From assembly GCA_002709225.1 (NCBI GenBank), contig PAQH01000008.1, forward strand, positions 55,919-119,918: a stretch of DNA of 64,000 nucleotides. The letters are read 5' to 3'. This DNA comes from Planctomycetaceae bacterium (GTDB lineage Bacteria; Planctomycetota; Planctomycetia; Pirellulales; Pirellulaceae). Below the pieces are notes generated by a model. That model ran no database searches. It saw only the letters and a program-made list of their open reading frames with translations, and had not been told where the DNA came from. Positions 23,836-56,099 of the stretch are shown here, piece after piece (position 1 is the first letter of the stretch; every line of letters begins with the position of its first letter). A program made the translations under genes and the position numbers.

Positions 23836-25821
23836 TTGCCAGAAGCGTCAACCGTAGTGCAACAAGAACAGTTTCTGGATGTCATTGATCGTGATGAAGC
23901 AGAGCGACGCTTTCACGGCGCCCTGCGACTCGAGACTTTGTCAACCGAATCCATACCTCTCTCTGACGGATGGGGAAGAATTCTCGCTGAAGACATTGTC
24001 TCGCAAGTCGACGTGCCGTCTTTCGACCGCTCAAACTACGACGGCTTTGCGGTTCAGTCAGCCGACACCGTTGGAGCACACGAAGAAAATCCCCGGACAG
24101 TAGAGCTACTACCGGAAGTGATCGCGACAGCGGTGATTCCCAGCTCCGAGATCAAGCCGGGAACTGCGGTCTCTATCGCAACAGGTGGCATGCTGCCACG
24201 GGGTGCCGATGCCGTAGTAATGGTCGAACACGCAGATCTCGATGGGACAAAGCTGTTGATTCGCCGTGCCGTGCCGCCTGGATTCGGAATCGCCTTCGCA
24301 GGTACCGATGTTGCCGCAGGTGAAACCGTCATACACCGCGGGCAACTCTTGACAAGCCGAGAAACGGGTGTGCTGGCCGCGATTGGTGCGGCCAGCATAC
24401 CCGTCTGGAGCCGCCCACGTGTAGCGATTGTCTCGACTGGTGATGAGATCATTGCACCTGATGAGCCAATGAGACCGGGCATGATCTACGATTCCAACGC
24501 CCAGATCATTGCAGACGCCGTTCGTGAACTGGGTGGCGAACCAATCCTATTGGGAATCGTCAAGGACGATCTTCAGCCGCTGCGTGACAAGCTCCACGAA
24601 GCATTGCAGAGCTGTGATGTCGTATTACTCTCGGGAGGAACCAGTAAAGGTGCCGGCGACCTGTCGTACCGCGCAGTCGCCGAACTTTCGGACCCTGGAA
24701 TCGTCGCCCATGGTGTCGCGTTGAAACCGGGAAAACCGATTTGCCTGGCAGCCAGTCTTGGAAAACCGGTGGTCATTCTTCCCGGCTTCCCAACGTCGGC
24801 GATTTTTACCTTCCATGAATTTGTGGCACCGGTCATCCGGCAACTCGCGGGCCGCCCCCAAAGCCAGTCCGGCGTCGTAGCAGCCCGTATGGCAATGAAG
24901 TTCAATTCAGAGATAGGTCGCACCGAATACCTACTCGTCAACCTCTGTGAACGTCACGAAACCGAGCCCTCTACAGAGCCCAACCAGACAAGCCAATCCT
25001 TGGTGGCTTATCCGATGGGCAAAGGATCTGGCAGCGTTACCGCCTTCAGCCGCGCCGACGGATTCGTGACCATCGGACGACACGAAGAAATCGTAGCAGC
25101 CAATACTTCAGTGCAGGTCACATTGTTAGGACGGGATCTTGAAGTTGCAGATCTGGTCATTATTGGCAGCCATTGTGTGGGCCTTGACTTCTTGGTGGGC
25201 AAACTTCAGGAGCTCGGATTTCATACGAAGTTCCTCGCTGTCGGTTCCAGTGGTGGGCTCGACGCAGCTCGCCGTGGCGAATGCGATCTGGCAGGAATCC
25301 ACTTGCTTGATCCCGAAACGGGGACCTATAACCGGCCATTCCTGGAGCCTGGAATGACCTTATTACGCGGCTACGGTCGCTTGCAAGGAATCGTCTTTCG
25401 GCCAGACGATGTGCGATTTGTCGGTAAGGATGCCACCGCATGCATAAAGCACGTCAAAGAAGCCAACAACTGCTTAATGGTCAATCGAAATCAAGGAAGC
25501 GGAACACGAATTCTGATCGATCAACTACTCCAAGGCGTACAGCCCCCTGGTTATGCGATTCAATCGCGCAGCCACAACGCCGTCGCTGCGGCCGTTTCCC
25601 AACAACGTGCCGATTGGGGAGTCGCAATTCGTACCGTCGCCGATGCCGCAAATCTTGCCTTTGTGCCGCTTTCTGAAGAGCAGTACGATTTTGTCGTGCC
25701 CGAGCAGCGTCTCATGAAACCTGTGTTACGCGCACTGCAAAACCTGCTGGCGGATTCAGCGATCCGGCAGCATTTGATAGAAATGGGATTTACTCCGGCA
25801 CCGCTGACAGATCCTCACTAG
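23836..25821 (+). CDS. moeA: Molybdopterin molybdenumtransferase MoeA fused to a molybdate-binding-like PBP domain
   Basis: 661 residues from a TTG at 23836; a GTG at 23857 is the other option, and no ATG is in phase nearby. Residues 12-433 are MoeA: PSFDRSNYDGFAVQS, GGMLPRGADAVVMVE, RVAIVSTGDEI, LSGGTSKGAGDLS and LPGFPTSAIFTFHEFV. MoeA inserts molybdate (or tungstate) into adenylylated molybdopterin. Residues 438-661 are a PBP-like domain related to periplasmic molybdate-binding proteins but cytoplasmic here (VGLDFLVGKLQELGF, GIHLLDPETGTYN, NRNQGSGTRILIDQLL, SHNAVAAAV, DWGVAI). This fusion is known in archaea and some bacteria. With mobA and fhcC nearby it forms a cofactor neighbourhood. Confidence 0.94.
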   Translation: MPEASTVVQQEQFLDVIDRDEAERRFHGALRLETLSTESIPLSDGWGRILAEDIVSQVDVPSFDRSNYDGFAVQSADTVGAHEENPRTVELLPEVIATAVIPSSEIKPGTAVSIATGGMLPRGADAVVMVEHADLDGTKLLIRRAVPPGFGIAFAGTDVAAGETVIHRGQLLTSRETGVLAAIGAASIPVWSRPRVAIVSTGDEIIAPDEPMRPGMIYDSNAQIIADAVRELGGEPILLGIVKDDLQPLRDKLHEALQSCDVVLLSGGTSKGAGDLSYRAVAELSDPGIVAHGVALKPGKPICLAASLGKPVVILPGFPTSAIFTFHEFVAPVIRQLAGRPQSQSGVVAARMAMKFNSEIGRTEYLLVNLCERHETEPSTEPNQTSQSLVAYPMGKGSGSVTAFSRADGFVTIGRHEEIVAANTSVQVTLLGRDLEVADLVIIGSHCVGLDFLVGKLQELGFHTKFLAVGSSGGLDAARRGECDLAGIHLLDPETGTYNRPFLEPGMTLLRGYGRLQGIVFRPDDVRFVGKDATACIKHVKEANNCLMVNRNQGSGTRILIDQLLQGVQPPGYAIQSRSHNAVAAAVSQQRADWGVAIRTVADAANLAFVPLSEEQYDFVVPEQRLMKPVLRALQNLLADSAIRQHLIEMGFTPAPLTDPH

Positions 25822-26318: not shown

Positions 26319-27137
26319 CTAACTGGAACGAATCAGCACCTCGCCCCTGCCACCCTCGATCAAGTCACCGTTGTAGAGATCGAACTGAGCCGAAAAAAGA
26401 TCACTGCAAAACGGAAAATCAAGTTCTTGCAGCCGCCGCAACAAGAGCCTCAATATGATGGGACGATAGCGACAGGCAAAGCGGAAGCTGGGCAAGAGTT
26501 CTGGCGCGTGATTCCCCAGGTACACCAACGTTCCGCGTTTCATACCTGCCGCATGGCGGATGCCACTTTGGCCGCAAACAAGAATCGTACCTGCCAACAT
26601 GTTGAAAGCAGCCAGATCCCCTACACTGCCACCCACGACAAGCATCCCACGGCGCATTGTATGACCAATTTCATTGCCCACATCGCCTTCAACGAGAATC
26701 GTACCACCTGTCATACCGCGAGCGCTACCACGATACGCAGCGCCGACCAAATGGCCTGCGCGACCACGAACGTGAATTCGCCCCCCATGCATTTCCCCTC
26801 CCAGCCAATCTCCCGCATTACCGGCCACCTCAATTCGGCCACCGGTCATTTCGCTTCCCACGTGCCGACCTGCGTCGCCAGCGACATAAATCCTGCCACG
26901 TTGCATCTTGGCGCCCACCCAATGGACACCGGACAACTCGCCCTCGAATCGGATCGATTCATCAGACGCATCCCCAGAAACGGAAAAAAAATCACCCAAG
27001 GGAACCTTGCGATTGCCCTGGTAGATCTCCCAGGAACGGATTTCGTCGAGAGTCTTACCCCGTAATGCCTGTGGTGTCACTCCCTCGATTTCAACGGGTA
27101 TGGGACCAGGTGACCGGTAAGAAAGTACAAGCGTCAT
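26319..27137 (-). CDS. fhcC: Formylmethanofuran dehydrogenase subunit C
   Basis: 272 residues from the ATG at 27137 (MTLVLSYRSPG); a TTG four codons upstream is also possible. The protein is the right-handed beta-helix GXGXG domain of FmdC/FwdC/FhcC: repeated units such as MQRGRIYVAGDAGRHVGSEM, MTGGRIEVAGNAGDWLGGEM, MHGGRIHVRGRAGHLVG and MTGGTILVEGDVGNEIG. In archaea it is part of the Mo/W formylmethanofuran dehydrogenase; in methylotrophic and planctomycete bacteria it is part of the formyltransferase/hydrolase (Fhc) complex of the tetrahydromethanopterin pathway for formaldehyde oxidation. Genes for the other Fhc subunits are not in the window. It is divergent from mobA. Confidence 0.92.
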   Translation of the reverse strand: MTLVLSYRSPGPIPVEIEGVTPQALRGKTLDEIRSWEIYQGNRKVPLGDFFSVSGDASDESIRFEGELSGVHWVGAKMQRGRIYVAGDAGRHVGSEMTGGRIEVAGNAGDWLGGEMHGGRIHVRGRAGHLVGAAYRGSARGMTGGTILVEGDVGNEIGHTMRRGMLVVGGSVGDLAAFNMLAGTILVCGQSGIRHAAGMKRGTLVYLGNHAPELLPSFRFACRYRPIILRLLLRRLQELDFPFCSDLFSAQFDLYNGDLIEGGRGEVLIRSS

Positions 27138-27214
27138 TGGTTGATCCAAATGGGGGATTCCTTAGATTTGAGGAGTATAACGCAGGTCGACACATTGTTT
27201 ACACCTGGTACCCC

Positions 27215-27889
27215 ATGAACGAATCTCAGATGGAAGGCCTCAAGATAGGAGGCCTCGTGCTTTGTGGCGGTCGTAGCCGCAGGATGGGGCTGGATAAAGC
27301 CAGTTTGCCTTTCGGTTCAGAAACCATGTTGAGTCGCGTCGTACGCAAACTCTCCCAAGTCGTTTCACCGATTGCAGTCGTCGCTGCGCAAGACCAAACG
27401 CTTCCCGAACTCCCCGATTCAGTACTTGTGGCGCGTGACTTGGAAGCCAACCGTGGTCCACTGCAAGGGCTATTTTCGGGGATGCGTTGCCTGCAGGGCT
27501 CTGTCGACGCATTGTTCGCAACAAGTTGCGACGTGCCACTGCTGAGTCCAGCATTCGTCCAACGACTGATAAAACTACTTGGTGCCCATGACGTTGTGGT
27601 CCCCGTAGACACGAAATACCACCATCCATTGGCTGCCATGTACCACATTCGCATCATTGGGCAAGTTCAAGAGTTACTTGACTCCAATCGCTTGAGACCC
27701 ATTCATCTCTATGACCAGGTCCACACTCGGCGAATCGACGTAGAAGAGATGCGTTCGGTCGATCCAAATCTAAACACGCTAGCCAACCTCAATCGGCCAG
27801 AGGATTACCTGGCGGCCCTGCAAACCGCTGGGTTCTCTGTTCCACGTGACGTCTACTCCACCCTACAAAATACCATTGATGATGATTGA
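27215..27889 (+). CDS. mobA: Molybdenum cofactor guanylyltransferase
   Basis: 224 residues from the ATG at 27215; an ATG at 27230 (MEGLKIGGLVLCGG) is possible. The long in-phase frame to 26657 is antisense to fhcC and is rejected. MobA attaches GMP to Mo-molybdopterin. The nucleotide-binding signature LVLCGGRSRRMGLDKASLPF, FATSCDVPLLSP and the C-terminal LANLNRPEDY are all typical. Alternatively it could act in the related CTP-dependent MocA branch, but the LCGGRSRRMG motif favours MobA. Its stop overlaps the start of the next gene, so the two are translationally coupled. Confidence 0.93.
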   Translation: MNESQMEGLKIGGLVLCGGRSRRMGLDKASLPFGSETMLSRVVRKLSQVVSPIAVVAAQDQTLPELPDSVLVARDLEANRGPLQGLFSGMRCLQGSVDALFATSCDVPLLSPAFVQRLIKLLGAHDVVVPVDTKYHHPLAAMYHIRIIGQVQELLDSNRLRPIHLYDQVHTRRIDVEEMRSVDPNLNTLANLNRPEDYLAALQTAGFSVPRDVYSTLQNTIDDD

Positions 27890-35151: not shown

Positions 35152-35628
35152 ATGCCTAAGAGTCTCAAGATTGTTCCGGATAAATGTACCGGCTGCATGC
35201 AGTGCGAGTTGGCGTGTTCCTGGGTACAAACTGGAACGTTTGCGCCGTCCAAGAGCGTAATACGAGTCAATGTATTCGATGAAGAAGCCAGTTACGCACC
35301 ATATACGTGCCTGCAGTGCGACGAAGCCTGGTGCATGACCGCCTGCCCAGTGAACGCTATCGGCACCGACCAGAATGGTGCCAAACTGGTTAGCGAAGAA
35401 CTCTGTATCGGCTGCCACCTCTGCACGCTGGCCTGTCCGTTTGGAACCGTTTTCACTCTGCCCAAAACCGACAAAGCGAGCAAGTGCAATCTCTGTGGCG
35501 GTGATCCGGCCTGTGCCGTTGCTTGCCCAACTTCAGCGATTGTATATGAAGAAAGTACACCCGCTGGCGACTGGTTTGGACCATGGTCGGAGAAGGTCAA
35601 TAAGAATTATGTGGCGGCAAATTCTTGA
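35152..35628 (+). CDS. Four-cluster ferredoxin subunit (AorA/HydN-like)
   Basis: 158 residues from the ATG at 35152, with GAGGAAAA upstream; the frame to 35017 is leader. Sixteen Cys in four groups would bind four [4Fe-4S] clusters: CTGCMQCELAC, CLQCDEAWCMTACP, CIGCHLCTLACP and CNLCGGDPACAVACP. This is the polyferredoxin subunit used by molybdenum/tungsten oxidoreductases and some hydrogenases to pass electrons. With the FAD oxidoreductase and the MoaD/ThiS-like gene that follow, it matches the aorA, aorC and aorD order of tungsten-dependent aldehyde oxidoreductase loci, but the catalytic aorB gene is absent from the window. No signal peptide, so cytoplasmic. Confidence 0.88.
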   Translation: MPKSLKIVPDKCTGCMQCELACSWVQTGTFAPSKSVIRVNVFDEEASYAPYTCLQCDEAWCMTACPVNAIGTDQNGAKLVSEELCIGCHLCTLACPFGTVFTLPKTDKASKCNLCGGDPACAVACPTSAIVYEESTPAGDWFGPWSEKVNKNYVAANS

Positions 35629-35764
35629 AACAATTCAAGCTTGTTGTGCAACTCCACGACACTGAAAATCGGCACCGACGAGACGCCATGGCTTTTCCGC
35701 CAGCAACGAAGGCCACTTATTCCCTGCCGGGTCTAACCCGGGCAAAACTGTTCGTGAGGAAATT

Positions 35765-37153
35765 ATGGCGACGCAACATGTGATCATCGGTGGCGGACCG
35801 GCAGCGACCAACGCGATGGAAACAATTCGCGAATTGGACCAGCAGGCTACGATCACGTTGATCAGTGATGAACCTGCCCATTCACGAATGGCACTGCCCT
35901 ACTGGCTCTCGTCACAAATCCCTGCCGCACATACACACACCGCGGATGCAGCGTTTTTCCAACAGCTCAATGTTGATGCGCGTATCGGACAGCGAGTCAC
36001 CGCAGTCGACCCGAACGGCCAAACAGTAACTCTCACAGACGGTGACAAGTTGGCCTTTGACAAGTTATTGATTGCCACGGGATCCTCGCCATTAGATCTG
36101 CCGGTACCTGGCAACGAACTCGCGGGCGTACAAAATCTCTGGTCACTAGGTCACACGCAACAGCTGCTTGATGCGACAAAAGATGCTGAACAACCTCGCG
36201 TGCTGATGATCGGCGCTGGATTCATCGGCTTCATCATGCTCAACGCGATGCACAAACGCGGCTGGAATTTATCGGTTGTGGAACGCGAGAGCCACGTGCT
36301 ACCACGCATGCTCAATGCCGACGCCGCCGGCATGGTCAACAGCTGGCTGACTTCCCGTGGAATCGATCTGCATTGCGGCGCAGCCGTTGAATCGATTGCC
36401 GAGGAAAGTGATGGTTCCAAGGTGGTGACATTAGACAATGGTACAACCCTTTCCGTGGACGTCGTCATTGTTGCAATCGGGATCAAGACAAATCTAGATT
36501 TCCTCGATGAATCTGGAATCGAAACAAACCAGGGAATCTTGGTCAACGAACAAATGCAAACCAATCTGCCGAATATTTTCGCCGCGGGCGATGTCGCCGA
36601 AGGCCCTGTGTTGGGTAGCGACAAAAAAGAGGTGCACCCCATTCAACCCACGGCGGTAGATCACGGACGGATTGCTGGAACGAACATGGCTGGGGAAACC
36701 GTCGCGTATCGCGGCAGTCTTTCTATGAATATTCTCGATTGCTGCGGACTCCAAACCGCCAGCTTCGGGCGCTGGGATGATACCAGCGACGATGTTCTGA
36801 CAATCTCCAATCCAACCGGCTTGGTCTATCGGAAATTGATTTGGCAAGAAGATCAGGTCGTCGGTGCTTTATTCGCCGGCCGCGCCAATGACATGGGCAT
36901 GTTGAACGACCTCGGCATGGTCAAAGGCATGTTGCAGACGCAAGCTCGAATGGGAGCCTGGAAGGAATTCTTGCAAGAAAACCCGTTCGACATCCGACGG
37001 GCTTACATCGCCGCGGGAGTGCCGCAACAATTAGTATCTTCCACGCTGCTGGGCCGCCCCAGTCAACCGCGCAAATACCGTTTTGGTGGCAAAGTTTCTG
37101 CGGTCCAAGCCAATCAGTCACACACAGTGTTCGTAGACGCAAAATCGAGTTAG
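35765..37153 (+). CDS. FAD/NAD-dependent pyridine nucleotide-disulfide-type oxidoreductase (AorC-like)
   Basis: 462 residues. Two Rossmann folds: IIGGGPAATNAMETIRELD at the N-terminus for FAD and RVLMIGAGFIGFIMLNAM near residue 150 for NAD(P)H, with the second FAD contact NIFAAGDVAEGP. The C-terminal half continues beyond the usual 400 residues with YRKLIWQEDQVVGALFAGRA and ends in a basic tail. No redox-active CxxC or CxxxxC disulfide motif is seen, so it is an NADH:acceptor (ferredoxin/rubredoxin-type) reductase rather than a disulfide reductase. It sits 136 bp after the polyferredoxin gene and probably couples NAD(H) to it. Confidence 0.9.
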   Translation: MATQHVIIGGGPAATNAMETIRELDQQATITLISDEPAHSRMALPYWLSSQIPAAHTHTADAAFFQQLNVDARIGQRVTAVDPNGQTVTLTDGDKLAFDKLLIATGSSPLDLPVPGNELAGVQNLWSLGHTQQLLDATKDAEQPRVLMIGAGFIGFIMLNAMHKRGWNLSVVERESHVLPRMLNADAAGMVNSWLTSRGIDLHCGAAVESIAEESDGSKVVTLDNGTTLSVDVVIVAIGIKTNLDFLDESGIETNQGILVNEQMQTNLPNIFAAGDVAEGPVLGSDKKEVHPIQPTAVDHGRIAGTNMAGETVAYRGSLSMNILDCCGLQTASFGRWDDTSDDVLTISNPTGLVYRKLIWQEDQVVGALFAGRANDMGMLNDLGMVKGMLQTQARMGAWKEFLQENPFDIRRAYIAAGVPQQLVSSTLLGRPSQPRKYRFGGKVSAVQANQSHTVFVDAKSS

Positions 37154-37275
37154 GTCGCATTAGCTCGACGACTGGACGCCTCGCTAGATGGCTCTCGTTG
37201 AACATTGATTTTCCTTTCCGATAGCTGTCACCGACCGAACACCGCGAGATCGTTCTGACACCCGTCCGTCACGCT

Positions 37276-37527
37276 TTGGACTCAATGGAATATTCCCGCA
37301 TGGTGATACAAATCAAGCTTATGGGCACCTTCAAAGATAGGACGCCCGCCGACGGCAAGCTGGAACTTCCAGACAACGCTTCCGTAGCAGCAGCCTTGGC
37401 CGCCTTGGAAATCGGAGATGAACGAGTACAAGTTCTGACGATCAATGGGAGCATGATTCGAGATCATGCGCAGCCGCTCTCTGATGGTGACGAGATGACC
37501 GTCATCCCTCCCGTGGGCGGCGGATAA
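37276..37527 (+). CDS. MoaD/ThiS-like sulfur carrier
   Basis: 83 residues from the ATG at 37276; an internal ATG at 37303 (MVIQIKLMG) would give a tighter 74-residue MoaD-like protein and may be the true start. The beta-grasp ubiquitin-like fold is evident: IQIKLMGTFKDR, then a hydrophobic helix (ASVAAALAALEI), then VQVLTINGSMI and DEMTVIPPVGGG at the end. The terminal Gly-Gly(-Gly) is the site of thiocarboxylation. In aldehyde oxidoreductase loci the homologous gene (aorD) serves synthesis of the pyranopterin cofactor. Here it follows the FAD oxidoreductase by 122 bp. Confidence 0.85.
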   Translation: MDSMEYSRMVIQIKLMGTFKDRTPADGKLELPDNASVAAALAALEIGDERVQVLTINGSMIRDHAQPLSDGDEMTVIPPVGGG

Positions 37528-37633: not shown

Positions 37634-40072
37634 TCAAGGATTGCGTTGGGAGGGGTTTGCCTGCTGTCTCAGTTCGCGTTGCAATTGCCGATAGCTCGCA
37701 TTGCCAGGCCGTAGTGTCACCAGCTTGTTGACCGATGCAACTGCCTCCTGGAACCGTTGCTGTTTTTGATAAATCAGTGTCAAGAACAAAACGTATTGTG
37801 GATTTCTAGGAGCAAGCTCAACGGTCCGCTCGAGTACCGTCGTTGCCTCCTCGACTTGGCCATTAAGATACAGCGACGAGCCCCAACGATACTGAAGTGC
37901 TGCATTATTGGGTAACAGGCTGGCATCACGAGCGTAGAGCTCTAATTCTTCGCGGCGAAGTTGCGCAACGCGTCTCAGGATCTGCTTGGCCCGAATGTTC
38001 TCTCCTGTAACGACGCCTGCTGCGGAACTGGAATCGGCCCGTTCGATTGACTGTACATTTCGTTCGAGCAAGTCAGCGAGATGTGCACGCGGTCCTGTCA
38101 CCGTCGGGTCCAGACGCAAGGCGCGTTCGTAATCTCTTCGGGCATCTTCCCACTGCCGCTGATTTTCATGCAAGATTCCCAGCATCAAGTGGGCTCCTAC
38201 GCGGTCGCTCTCCAACTTTAATCCGTCCTGATACTCTCGAAGCGCAGTCTCAAACAATGGTTTTAGCCTGGCACTTAATCGGTGTGGCGGAACATCAGAC
38301 AAGGCTCGCGCTGCCTCTGTCCGTACCAGTCTCCGGGGGTCGTCTAACACACTGGCCAAATCCGTAACACGCCGTTGACCAGAAAATCGAGGGGCCAAAC
38401 CTGCGGCTACGGATCGCACCTGGGGGTCAGGGTCCCGCAACCCCAAGCGGAATGCTTGAACCGCATCCGCCGATTCAAATTGTCCGAGTTCAGTCAGTGC
38501 CGTGGCCCGTACGATGCCTGGCTGCTTACGATCTGTCGCCAATCGGACCAACTCGAGCTCCACTCTGAGATCACCCGCTCGTGCCCGGGTTATCGTAGTC
38601 GCATAGTGGACATCAAGGTCGTCTTTGACTCCATACCACTTCTGGAAATACTCGGCAGCCCATTGATCCAGACGACGCAGATAATCCTTGACCTCCTGGT
38701 CACCGTCCTGTGCAGCGCGGACCCACGCGCCATAATCCACGAGTTGTTTTCTCACTGGTTTTCCAGGCCGAGCGTCCTTCAGATGACAACGAGAACAAGC
38801 ATTAGGAGTGCCTAACCTGGCACTCAAATCAGGGCGTGGTACCCGCAAACTATGATCACGACGCGGATCGACCTTCATGTAAGTTGTTTCTGGCATATGG
38901 CATTCCACACACCGTGCTCCCGGCGAATCTCCCCGGTGTTGATGATGTCGTGGGCCGTCATATTTACTGGCAGGATGCTGATGACAGGAGGTGCAGAGTC
39001 GGTTGTCGTTGTACTTCGGTTTTAGCGAATGTGGATCGTGACAATCTGTACAACGAATTCCCTTCTGGAACATCTTGCTCTGCAAGAACGAGCCGTGCAC
39101 ATACACTTCGTCTCGAATCTGACCGTCCGCATGATAAAGAAGCGGATCCAAAGTCGCATTGTTGAAAAAATCATAGAATTCAGCGCCCGCACGAAATCCA
39201 GCATGAACCACGCGCTGTCGCCGCGTATGGCAACGTGCGCACGTGTCAATCTCGATCTCAGAGCGAGCACTTTTCAAAGGCGCGAGCGCATAACCCCGCG
39301 TTCGATCCCAAAAAAAAGAAGACGCATTCGCCAACTGAACGTGAAGACTTCCCGGACCGTGACACGCTTCACAACTGACATCGATTTCAGAGTAGGTCGT
39401 CTGGTACGTTGCTGTCGTCACGTCATAGTTTTTCTGCAAGTTGGTTGAATGGCAATCCGCACAGCTCGTATTCCAACGCATGGTAATTCCGGTCCAATGC
39501 AAGGCGTCATCCGGGCTCAATTTCTCGTCTTGTACATCGGGAGGGGGCAAATAAAACCAACGACGCTCAGTAGTGTCCCAACACAACCGCAACACCTGCA
39601 GGCGTGCAATTGCATCCTTGGCCACTTTCTCCGAACGATCAAATTCCACCATATATTGCTGTAGTGGCTCGACACCTAGGACATACTTGACTTCAAAGTC
39701 TGCTTTTTTTCCATCAGGTCCTTCGGTGTTGACGTAAAACTGGTCACCGCGACGGAACATCCGGGAAGTCACTCCCAAGTGCGTTAGCTCTGCATTCTCA
39801 AAGTCACCCAAAACAGTGCCTGGTCTCGCGTGATCCATTGCGAGATCGTGATGCGATCCAGCAAAGTGCGTTGCCTGACTTTGGTGACACGAAATGCAGC
39901 TGGCCCGCCCCACATACACAGCAACCGCATCTTGCGGGATTCCGCTCCACCAATCCAGCACGAGAGCGGCACAGGTTATGCAGAGCAATCCGGCCGCTAT
40001 CCATTTCGGGTAGCGCCCCGCTGGAAACCGTATGAGGCGTGCAATGCAATTCAAAAGACGCTGTCGGGGCAC
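37634..40072 (-). CDS. Octaheme c-type cytochrome with HEAT and TPR repeats
   Basis: 812 residues from a GTG at 40072. An N-terminal hydrophobic segment (KWIAAGLLCITCAALVLDW) exports or anchors it. Eight CxxCH haem sites follow: CISCH, CADCH, CEACH, CARCH, CTDCH, CTSCH, CVECH and CSRCH, all before about residue 430. After that come HEAT-like units (VRATALTELGQFESADAVQA, VRSVAAGLAPRF, VRTEAARALSDVP) and then TPR units (VGAHLMLGILHENQRQWEDA, AALQYRWGSSLYLNGQVEEA). The haem domain resembles cytochrome c554/NrfA-like multihaem proteins. Periplasmic electron transfer is expected; the redox partner and any catalytic activity are unknown. The gene is followed by the divergent-free gap to the M50 protease gene on the same strand. 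Confidence 0.9.
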   Translation of the reverse strand: MPRQRLLNCIARLIRFPAGRYPKWIAAGLLCITCAALVLDWWSGIPQDAVAVYVGRASCISCHQSQATHFAGSHHDLAMDHARPGTVLGDFENAELTHLGVTSRMFRRGDQFYVNTEGPDGKKADFEVKYVLGVEPLQQYMVEFDRSEKVAKDAIARLQVLRLCWDTTERRWFYLPPPDVQDEKLSPDDALHWTGITMRWNTSCADCHSTNLQKNYDVTTATYQTTYSEIDVSCEACHGPGSLHVQLANASSFFWDRTRGYALAPLKSARSEIEIDTCARCHTRRQRVVHAGFRAGAEFYDFFNNATLDPLLYHADGQIRDEVYVHGSFLQSKMFQKGIRCTDCHDPHSLKPKYNDNRLCTSCHQHPASKYDGPRHHQHRGDSPGARCVECHMPETTYMKVDPRRDHSLRVPRPDLSARLGTPNACSRCHLKDARPGKPVRKQLVDYGAWVRAAQDGDQEVKDYLRRLDQWAAEYFQKWYGVKDDLDVHYATTITRARAGDLRVELELVRLATDRKQPGIVRATALTELGQFESADAVQAFRLGLRDPDPQVRSVAAGLAPRFSGQRRVTDLASVLDDPRRLVRTEAARALSDVPPHRLSARLKPLFETALREYQDGLKLESDRVGAHLMLGILHENQRQWEDARRDYERALRLDPTVTGPRAHLADLLERNVQSIERADSSSAAGVVTGENIRAKQILRRVAQLRREELELYARDASLLPNNAALQYRWGSSLYLNGQVEEATTVLERTVELAPRNPQYVLFLTLIYQKQQRFQEAVASVNKLVTLRPGNASYRQLQRELRQQANPSQRNP

Positions 40073-54620: not shown

Positions 54621-56099
54621 GTGAACGTGGAAACGCAAGACACGCTCTACCCTGAACCGCCAGCTGCGTTACAAGTAGTGCGCTTGCGGTCGCTCGCGAC
54701 CTTTGCCGGGCCTGGCATAATCATCGCTTCCGTGACCATCGGGAGTGGTGAACTTGTCTGGGCATCCCGTAGCGGCGCCATTTTCGGTTACTCCATGCTC
54801 TGGTGCTTCCTGTATGCGGGTGTGTTCAAGGCAATTCAGGTCTATTCGGCGGCACGCCATATCACCCTCTGCGGTGAACACCCGATAGTCGGTTGGACCA
54901 AAATGCCTGGCCCACCGTTGTGGTTTCCATTGCTGATCGCCGTGCCAGCAATACTGTTGATGCCCGTAGCATTCTCTGGCATTCCAGAAATTCTTGGGGG
55001 TTATATCGATCACCTTGTTCGTTACGAAGCGGTGGAAACGGCAATCGGGCCATGGAAAGGGATCGAGTTCTGGATAAACACCTGGAGCTCGGTCGTCCTG
55101 TGCGTTTGCGTCACCTTAGCGGTGGCCTCCAGCTACGACATTCTGGAAAAGGCCTCGCTCGTCGTCTTAGGGGTGATGCTTGCTTGCATCATTGCCGCGG
55201 TGGCGGTACTGGGACCGAATCTGTCAGAGCTACTGACAGGCCTGTTCGTACCACAGGTCACCGATTTCCCCGAGTTTGTGCGGCGACCTGACCTCGCCAC
55301 CGAGTTCAACGACCGTAGCCCCTGGCTGGAGGTGGCGTTGTATTTGGCCGCGGTAGGAGGAGGGGCCTACGACTACATCGGTTACATAGGGATGCTACGT
55401 CAAAAACACTGGGGATTGGCTGGACAGCAAGTCGCCTCGCGAACAGAACTGGAAACGGCGACCCAAACCCAACCTGAAACAGTTCACAAAGCGCTCATCT
55501 GGAGCCGCGCCCCTTTCTGGGATATCAGTCTCTCCTTCGCCCTGGTAATCCTCGTAACTCTGCTATTCGCAGTTCTCGGCAAACTGGTATTGCACGACCA
55601 TGTTCCGGCCTTAGTCCCCGCCAATAACGATTTGTTGACCGCGCAGGAAGGCTTCGTGACTAAGCTGCACAGCAATCTGAAGTGGATCTACCGTGCGGGT
55701 GTCTTTCTAGCCTTGATGGGCACACTCTATGGTGCCTTCGAAATCTACCGCCACACTTTTGTCGAAAGCATCTCAGCGGTGGCGCCGCGCTGGACAACTC
55801 CGCAACGCGTCGCCCAACTGCGTCGATTAATCGTTCTCTATTGTTTCCTCGGAGGTCTGACCATGATCTGGTTGCCCGAGGGTATTGCCGGCAGTATCGT
55901 CGCTCGTATGACTTTCGGCTCGATCGTCAGTGGGGCGGCGTCATGCGGACTCTGGTGTTTCGCAATGCTCTGGCTTGATCGTGTGAGACTCCCCGCCCCT
56001 CTGCAAATGGGGCGGCGCTTATGGTGGAGCTTGCTCGTCTCAGGCGTGGTTATGACCGGTTTGGGAATCCGGTCGGCATACGACTATTTTTTCTCTTGA
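54621..56099 (+). CDS. Nramp-superfamily transporter lacking canonical metal motifs
   Basis: 492 residues from a GTG at 54621. About eleven hydrophobic helices. The first, FAGPGIIIASVTIGSGELVW, aligns with Nramp helix 1, where the metal-binding motif is normally DPGN; here it reads GSGE. The helix 6 equivalent (LAAVGGGAYDYIGYIGML) lacks the MPHN motif. The remaining topology, including the SGAIFGYSMLW segment after helix 1, is Nramp-like. The family carries Mn, Fe and other divalent ions, but this member has lost the known ligands, so its substrate is probably different. It follows the amidohydrolase and may transport a related small molecule, which is speculation. Confidence 0.85.
   Translation: MNVETQDTLYPEPPAALQVVRLRSLATFAGPGIIIASVTIGSGELVWASRSGAIFGYSMLWCFLYAGVFKAIQVYSAARHITLCGEHPIVGWTKMPGPPLWFPLLIAVPAILLMPVAFSGIPEILGGYIDHLVRYEAVETAIGPWKGIEFWINTWSSVVLCVCVTLAVASSYDILEKASLVVLGVMLACIIAAVAVLGPNLSELLTGLFVPQVTDFPEFVRRPDLATEFNDRSPWLEVALYLAAVGGGAYDYIGYIGMLRQKHWGLAGQQVASRTELETATQTQPETVHKALIWSRAPFWDISLSFALVILVTLLFAVLGKLVLHDHVPALVPANNDLLTAQEGFVTKLHSNLKWIYRAGVFLALMGTLYGAFEIYRHTFVESISAVAPRWTTPQRVAQLRRLIVLYCFLGGLTMIWLPEGIAGSIVARMTFGSIVSGAASCGLWCFAMLWLDRVRLPAPLQMGRRLWWSLLVSGVVMTGLGIRSAYDYFFS

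Follow-up and report, generated by a model that had tools for sequence, protein, structure and literature searches.

A planctomycete aorA-aorC-aorD cluster with a distant aorB gene: probable trans assembly of an AorABC-type aldehyde oxidoreductase

The closest described counterpart of the genes considered here is the tungsten-dependent aldehyde oxidoreductase AorABC of Aromatoleum aromaticum, encoded by an aorABCDE operon (PDB 8c0z; PMC6365974, PMC10413684). In the Aromatoleum scheme, the aldehyde is oxidised at the W-bis-pterin site of AorB and the electrons travel along the cluster wire of AorA to AorC and NAD+; a C-terminal extension of AorA is required for filaments (PMC10413684). Related enzymes include the Pyrococcus furiosus AOR (1aor), a ferredoxin-linked homodimer, and the WOR enzymes, in which Class I consists of WorL alone and is ferredoxin-linked while Class III comprises WorL, WorS and WorN (PMC13328260). 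The published statements that we found infer subunit make-up from operons, as did Arndt et al. 2019 in judging all bacterial AORs to be three-subunit enzymes (PMC6365974), or from the genes adjacent to the large subunit, as did Putumbaka et al. 2026 in assigning WOR classes (PMC13328260), in a text that makes no mention of planctomycetes. In the literature searched, which leaves out most subscription journals, we came across no description of an aor locus divided in this way.

The window, by which we mean the whole stretch of 64,000 nucleotides that was analysed (positions 55,919 to 119,918 of contig PAQH01000008.1, assembly GCA_002709225.1), carries three aor genes and, upstream of them, a group of genes related to molybdenum or tungsten enzymes. 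Their positions in the window are as follows:

23836..25821, plus strand: MoeA-PBP fusion, predicted to serve metal insertion (possibly of W) into the pterin cofactor (Pfam MoeA_N, MoCF_biosynth, MoeA_C and PBP_like; NF011068 over cut-off)
26319..27149, minus strand: FhcC/FwdC, subunit C of the formylmethanofuran dehydrogenase (hydrolase complex) (TIGR03122, 266 bits versus a cut-off of 131)
27242..27889, plus strand: MobA-like nucleotidyltransferase (Pfam NTP_transf_3 over cut-off; NCBIfam MobA models below their cut-offs)
35152..35628, plus strand: aorA, predicted polyferredoxin "wire" subunit of 158 aa with four 4Fe-4S sites and a conserved C-terminal extension (best PDB match 8c0z_C)
35629..35764, plus strand: gap of 136 bp at the position of aorB in relatives, with no aorB remnant (tblastn)
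35765..37153, plus strand: aorC, predicted FAD- and NAD-binding cap subunit of 462 aa (best PDB match 8c0z_E)
37300..37527, plus strand: aorD, MoaD/ThiS-like sulfur carrier of 75 aa with a C-terminal GGG (Pfam ThiS, E 1.4e-12)

The aorA, aorC and aorD genes are all intact, and their matches in the PDB and Pfam confirm what a first-pass annotation of the letters had proposed, namely that a ferredoxin, an FAD/NAD oxidoreductase and a MoaD/ThiS-like protein are encoded here in the order of aorA, aorC and aorD. PDB searches returned the Aromatoleum subunits first, both for AorA (8c0z chain C, E 3.7e-48) and for AorC (8c0z chain E, E 1.5e-74, with the runner-up at 5e-39). AorC, which is also recognised by Pfam Pyr_redox_2 (E 2e-56), is 62-63% identical to the aorB-adjacent AorC proteins of relatives, in most of which aorD follows aorC. 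AorA is present as a single copy in the genome (next-best match 31%), and its 16 cysteines, arranged in four clusters, are invariant (16/16) across 24 relatives. So is W141, which together with the conserved W145 marks a C-terminal extension that is apparent in the sequence and that AlphaFold renders as a helix (residues 143-157) in a model of low overall confidence (mean pLDDT 44). The set thus shares with Aromatoleum an orthologous four-cluster AorA with its extension, an AorC and an AorD-like protein, and by analogy the extension may support filament formation here as well. As the first-pass annotation had also pointed out, only 136 bp separate aorA from aorC; tblastn of this gap with six AorBs returned chance matches only, and aorB is likewise absent from the matching gap in two other species of the genus, represented by the separate metagenome-assembled genomes (MAGs) RS398 and NAT155.

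That annotation had found no AorB in the window and had offered two explanations, an AorB encoded elsewhere or recruitment of the electron-transfer module to a different enzyme. Searching the whole genome, as it had suggested, located three aldehyde ferredoxin oxidoreductase (AFOR) genes, on contigs C34, C48 and C8 (at 15797; C8 is the contig that contains the window), none of them within the window. The gene on C34 (71536-73377) encodes an intact, full-length AFOR of 614 aa whose best structural matches are 9mqx_D and 8c0z_A (E 1e-190), and which we refer to as AorB; its distance from aorA-aorC-aorD, estimated from contig ends, is 55 kb or more. The catalytic residues Glu, Tyr and His of the Aromatoleum enzyme (E331, Y443 and H464 in Aromatoleum numbering; roles from PMC10413684) are retained as E328, Y440 and H461, as are the four cluster cysteines (C289, C292, C296 and C504). 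None of the 265 columns that are invariant in 22 operon-encoded AorBs is broken in the C34 protein, each operon AorB in turn breaking 0 to 9 columns in a leave-one-out control. In the AorB tree, it branches from within the AorBs that members of the class encode in operons (100/98), with no long branch and no acceleration.

The gene content, its intactness and the conserved catalytic and structural positions point to the first of the two explanations. We estimate at about 0.88 the probability that the window genes and the C34 aorB together specify an AorABC enzyme that assembles in trans; the enzyme would then be a known one, and only the arrangement of its genes new. AorB would be made from its distant chromosomal gene and join in trans a putative wire (AorA) and a putative NAD-linked cap (AorC), with AorD as a probable helper in cofactor maturation, as in a tungsten aldehyde oxidoreductase of the Aromatoleum type. 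By analogy with that enzyme, AorB would oxidise the aldehyde at a W-bis-pterin site, and electrons would pass from its own 4Fe-4S cluster through AorA to AorC and NAD+, or in reverse. What sets the proposed enzyme apart from that of Aromatoleum is the distance between aorB and aorA/aorC, and its source, an uncultured planctomycete.

The C34 AorB could instead be a lone ferredoxin-linked aldehyde oxidoreductase, AorA and AorC serving the AFOR of C48, that of C8 or a non-tungsten enzyme, a reading that we consider improbable. That the genome has two further AFOR genes, whose products could draw on this AorA and AorC, does count against trans assembly with the C34 protein. The resemblance of AorC to PadH, and of AorA to PadI, of phenylglyoxylate dehydrogenase also speaks for another partner; these NCBIfam matches nevertheless fall far below the equivalog cut-offs (255 of 475 bits for PadH, 87 of 700 bits for PadI), the PadI model spans 443 aa versus the 158 aa of AorA, and the 8c0z subunits are the best PDB matches. 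A third point in its favour comes from other phyla (Nitrospinota, Rokubacteria and others; L197, L199-L211, L214-L216), where the gene after aorA-aorC encodes a distant AFOR with about 30% identity to AorB, possibly a different catalytic partner. The C34 protein, however, is an orthologue of the operon AorBs; it has Lys and Ile where the Pyrococcus AOR (1aor alignment), to which it is homologous over its whole length and whose gene likewise stands alone, has the dimer-bridging Fe ligands Glu332 and His383 (roles from PMC12096430); and it shares with 8c0z_A an insert after the cluster cysteines that the Pyrococcus enzyme lacks. Unlike in the case of the Pyrococcus AOR, moreover, genes for partner subunits are present in the genome. 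The candidate on C8 has a ferredoxin-domain protein and a MoaD-like gene of its own.

Occurrence across the order also argues against a partner other than the C34 protein. In a sample of 296 genomes, the genomes with an orthologue of AorB (at least 73% identity) and those with one of AorC (at least 55%) were identical, nine in all (Fisher p 2e-17, not corrected for phylogeny). C48-type AFORs, about 31-37% identical to AorB, in contrast occur in many genomes without AorC orthologues, so that it is the C34-type AorB that tracks AorC exactly. Eight of the nine genomes have aorA-aorB-aorC together, in most cases with aorD next in line (the aorB of G027 is interrupted by a contig break); the ninth, in which aorB is split from aorA-aorC, is that of the window. 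The alternative raised in the first-pass annotation, recruitment of the module to a different enzyme, finds no direct support here, although it is a realistic possibility for the other phyla with a distant AFOR after aorA-aorC, and neither of the findings named there as fatal, an aorB in the window or membership of the ferredoxin/FAD pair in a complex that never includes AorB, was made.

The two remaining AFOR loci deserve mention in their own right. On C48 (L005:6791-11050), the AFOR gene lies beside the gene for formylmethanofuran dehydrogenase subunit B (FhcB) and an FwdD-like gene. On C8, about 75 kb upstream of aorA (L006:5356-11107), a 1132-aa cyclic-nucleotide-binding and 4Fe-4S protein is encoded with a divergent AFOR and the MoaD-like protein, next to multiheme cytochrome genes; this cluster looks like an undescribed Mo/W enzyme. 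On C34, aorB is flanked by genes for a nucleoside hydrolase and an FAH-family hydrolase, one to each side. We infer no pathway or substrate from this neighbourhood because the FAH-family hydrolase falls below every NCBIfam cut-off and a nearby KDPG-type aldolase has only a broad subfamily match. A promoter motif shared by aorA and aorB was likewise considered and rejected: a GGARTTTGGT look-alike was seen by eye in front of both genes, and a motif scan found it only before the aorA genes of this genus, with no shared promoter element of the two loci.

Comparison of the locus across related planctomycetes, another check proposed at the outset, placed the separation in a wider setting. An AorC alignment was used to scan 84,980 species, each represented by a single genome, and yielded 31 planctomycete or planctomycete-like loci, 21 of which have A, B and C together; five have A and C without B (RS398, NAT155, NP86, NP69 and ARS65), three have AorC with neither A nor B close by, and contig ends truncate the remaining two. 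RS398 and NAT155, whose AorC proteins are 95% and 84% identical to that of the window, carry aorA-aorC-aorD with the flanks of the window and a lone aorB in the neighbourhood seen on C34, from FabH to ClpX. The recurrence of these flanks in RS398 and NAT155, along with the A-B-C(-D) order in most relatives, indicates that the A-C-D order is more than a product of chance. In NP86, NP69 and ARS65, an aorB of 77-80% identity occupies other sites with unrelated surroundings, there being two copies in ARS65; every split genome that was checked has an aorB elsewhere. Parsimony on either the AorB tree or the AorA+AorC tree requires three changes between the linked and unlinked states, from which it follows that aorB probably became separated several times. 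We note that in two Gemmatales genomes (L159, L164, L253, L254) aorC is separate from an aorA-aorB pair, or each of the three genes stands by itself, and that a planctomycete-like aor operon occurs in a record titled as a Bordetella parapertussis MAG (L150), which is probably mislabelled.

The conservation of the split in three species bears on two further explanations, both of which appear highly improbable. An operon that lacks its catalytic gene invites the view that the window genes are decaying leftovers of a former AOR operon; the genes are intact, however, with AorA and AorC conserved at 83-97% in the three species and all 16 cluster cysteines kept, and an intact aorB persists at 93-97% in these same species. 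Equally, the genome is a draft (167 contigs, 83% complete), and misassembly may be imagined to have removed aorB from the window or binning to have brought in C34 from another organism, the more so as a similar orphan-aorB contig (C152) occurs in the unrelated MAG G218. RS398 and NAT155 nonetheless show aorA-aorC-aorD and aorB each in the context that it has here, the tetranucleotide distance between C34 and C8 is 0.074 (versus 0.060-0.072 within C8 and at least 0.155 for loci of other genera), and the ClpX encoded on C34 is nearest to that of another member of the family; on the strength of its composition, its ClpX and the two congeners, we reject the idea that C34 is a contaminant. The G218 contig is probably itself the contaminant because its DNA is 99.1% identical to the orphan locus of RS398. 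We accordingly rejected this second AorB of G218 (96% identical, on a contig of 4.4 kb, L075) as a true paralogue; the genome's own AorB is encoded in an A-B-C-D operon.

How the separation arose in this genus allows two accounts. The AorB tree groups the genus (100/99) with RS383, RS395 and UBA9460, whose aorB genes are part of the operon, and the AorB data reject its grouping with NP69 (AU p 7e-5). The AorA+AorC tree prefers NP69 as the neighbour, a difference in nearest neighbour that counts against trans assembly, without rejecting the grouping seen with AorB (p 0.115). The gene may thus have simply moved, or a relative's AorB may have replaced the original one by horizontal transfer.

An enzyme with subunits encoded in this manner, as is probable for this group of marine planctomycetes, would be misread by rules based on gene neighbourhood. 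The proposed enzyme resembles Class III WOR in having three subunit types; that class differs in having WorS and WorN encoded beside WorL, and neither gene is found near the C34 aorB, both occurring elsewhere in the genome (C34 versus C8), nor are they beside aorB in RS398 and NAT155. Taken by its neighbours, the C34 AorB matches the lone WorL of Class I, and the rule of PMC13328260 would make it a stand-alone ferredoxin enzyme in a genome that also carries wire and cap genes.

A broader suggestion, which we offer tentatively and hold to be less probable than not by some distance, is that the AorA wire and the AorC cap form a shared scaffold to which unlinked or duplicated AorB paralogues might attach in trans, so that the catalytic subunits of a nanowire could be exchanged or mixed. 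The idea of a shared wire with exchangeable catalytic subunits is worth entertaining because of two sets of loci. Latescibacterota, Gemmatimonadota and Zixibacteria (L167-L174, L177, L182) have the order aorA-aorB1-aorB2-aorC, with two catalytically intact AorBs for each AorA and AorC, the second of which falls in the clade of planctomycete AorBs; two distant planctomycetes (G424 C2 and G356 C104; L114 and L116, with L115 and L117) have the first AorB type in the operon and the second, planctomycete type unlinked. Were the suggestion true, the split loci, the operon-plus-orphan pairs of G356 and G424 and the tandem aorB1-aorB2 genes would be stages or forms of such a scaffold. The repeated separation of aorB and the tandem genes would in any event offer natural cases for an AOR nanowire that accepts different catalytic subunits, an engineering idea of its discoverers (PMC10413684).

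With respect to the genes upstream of aorA, the MoeA-PBP fusion and FhcC reported in the first-pass annotation are well supported by the matches listed above, while the MobA reported with them holds at the level of the Pfam family and not of the NCBIfam MobA models. In ARS65 (L153:1034-8943), aorA-aorC-aorD is flanked by a MoeA-PBP fusion on one side and a TupB/TupC-like transporter on the other, which links the genes to tungsten; the fusion found 10 kb upstream of the aor genes in the window is of the ARS65 kind. On the other side, aorD is adjoined by a gene on the minus strand (37634-40072) for a protein that joins a multiheme cytochrome to HEAT and TPR repeats, and this gene is conserved beside aorD in RS398 and NAT155.
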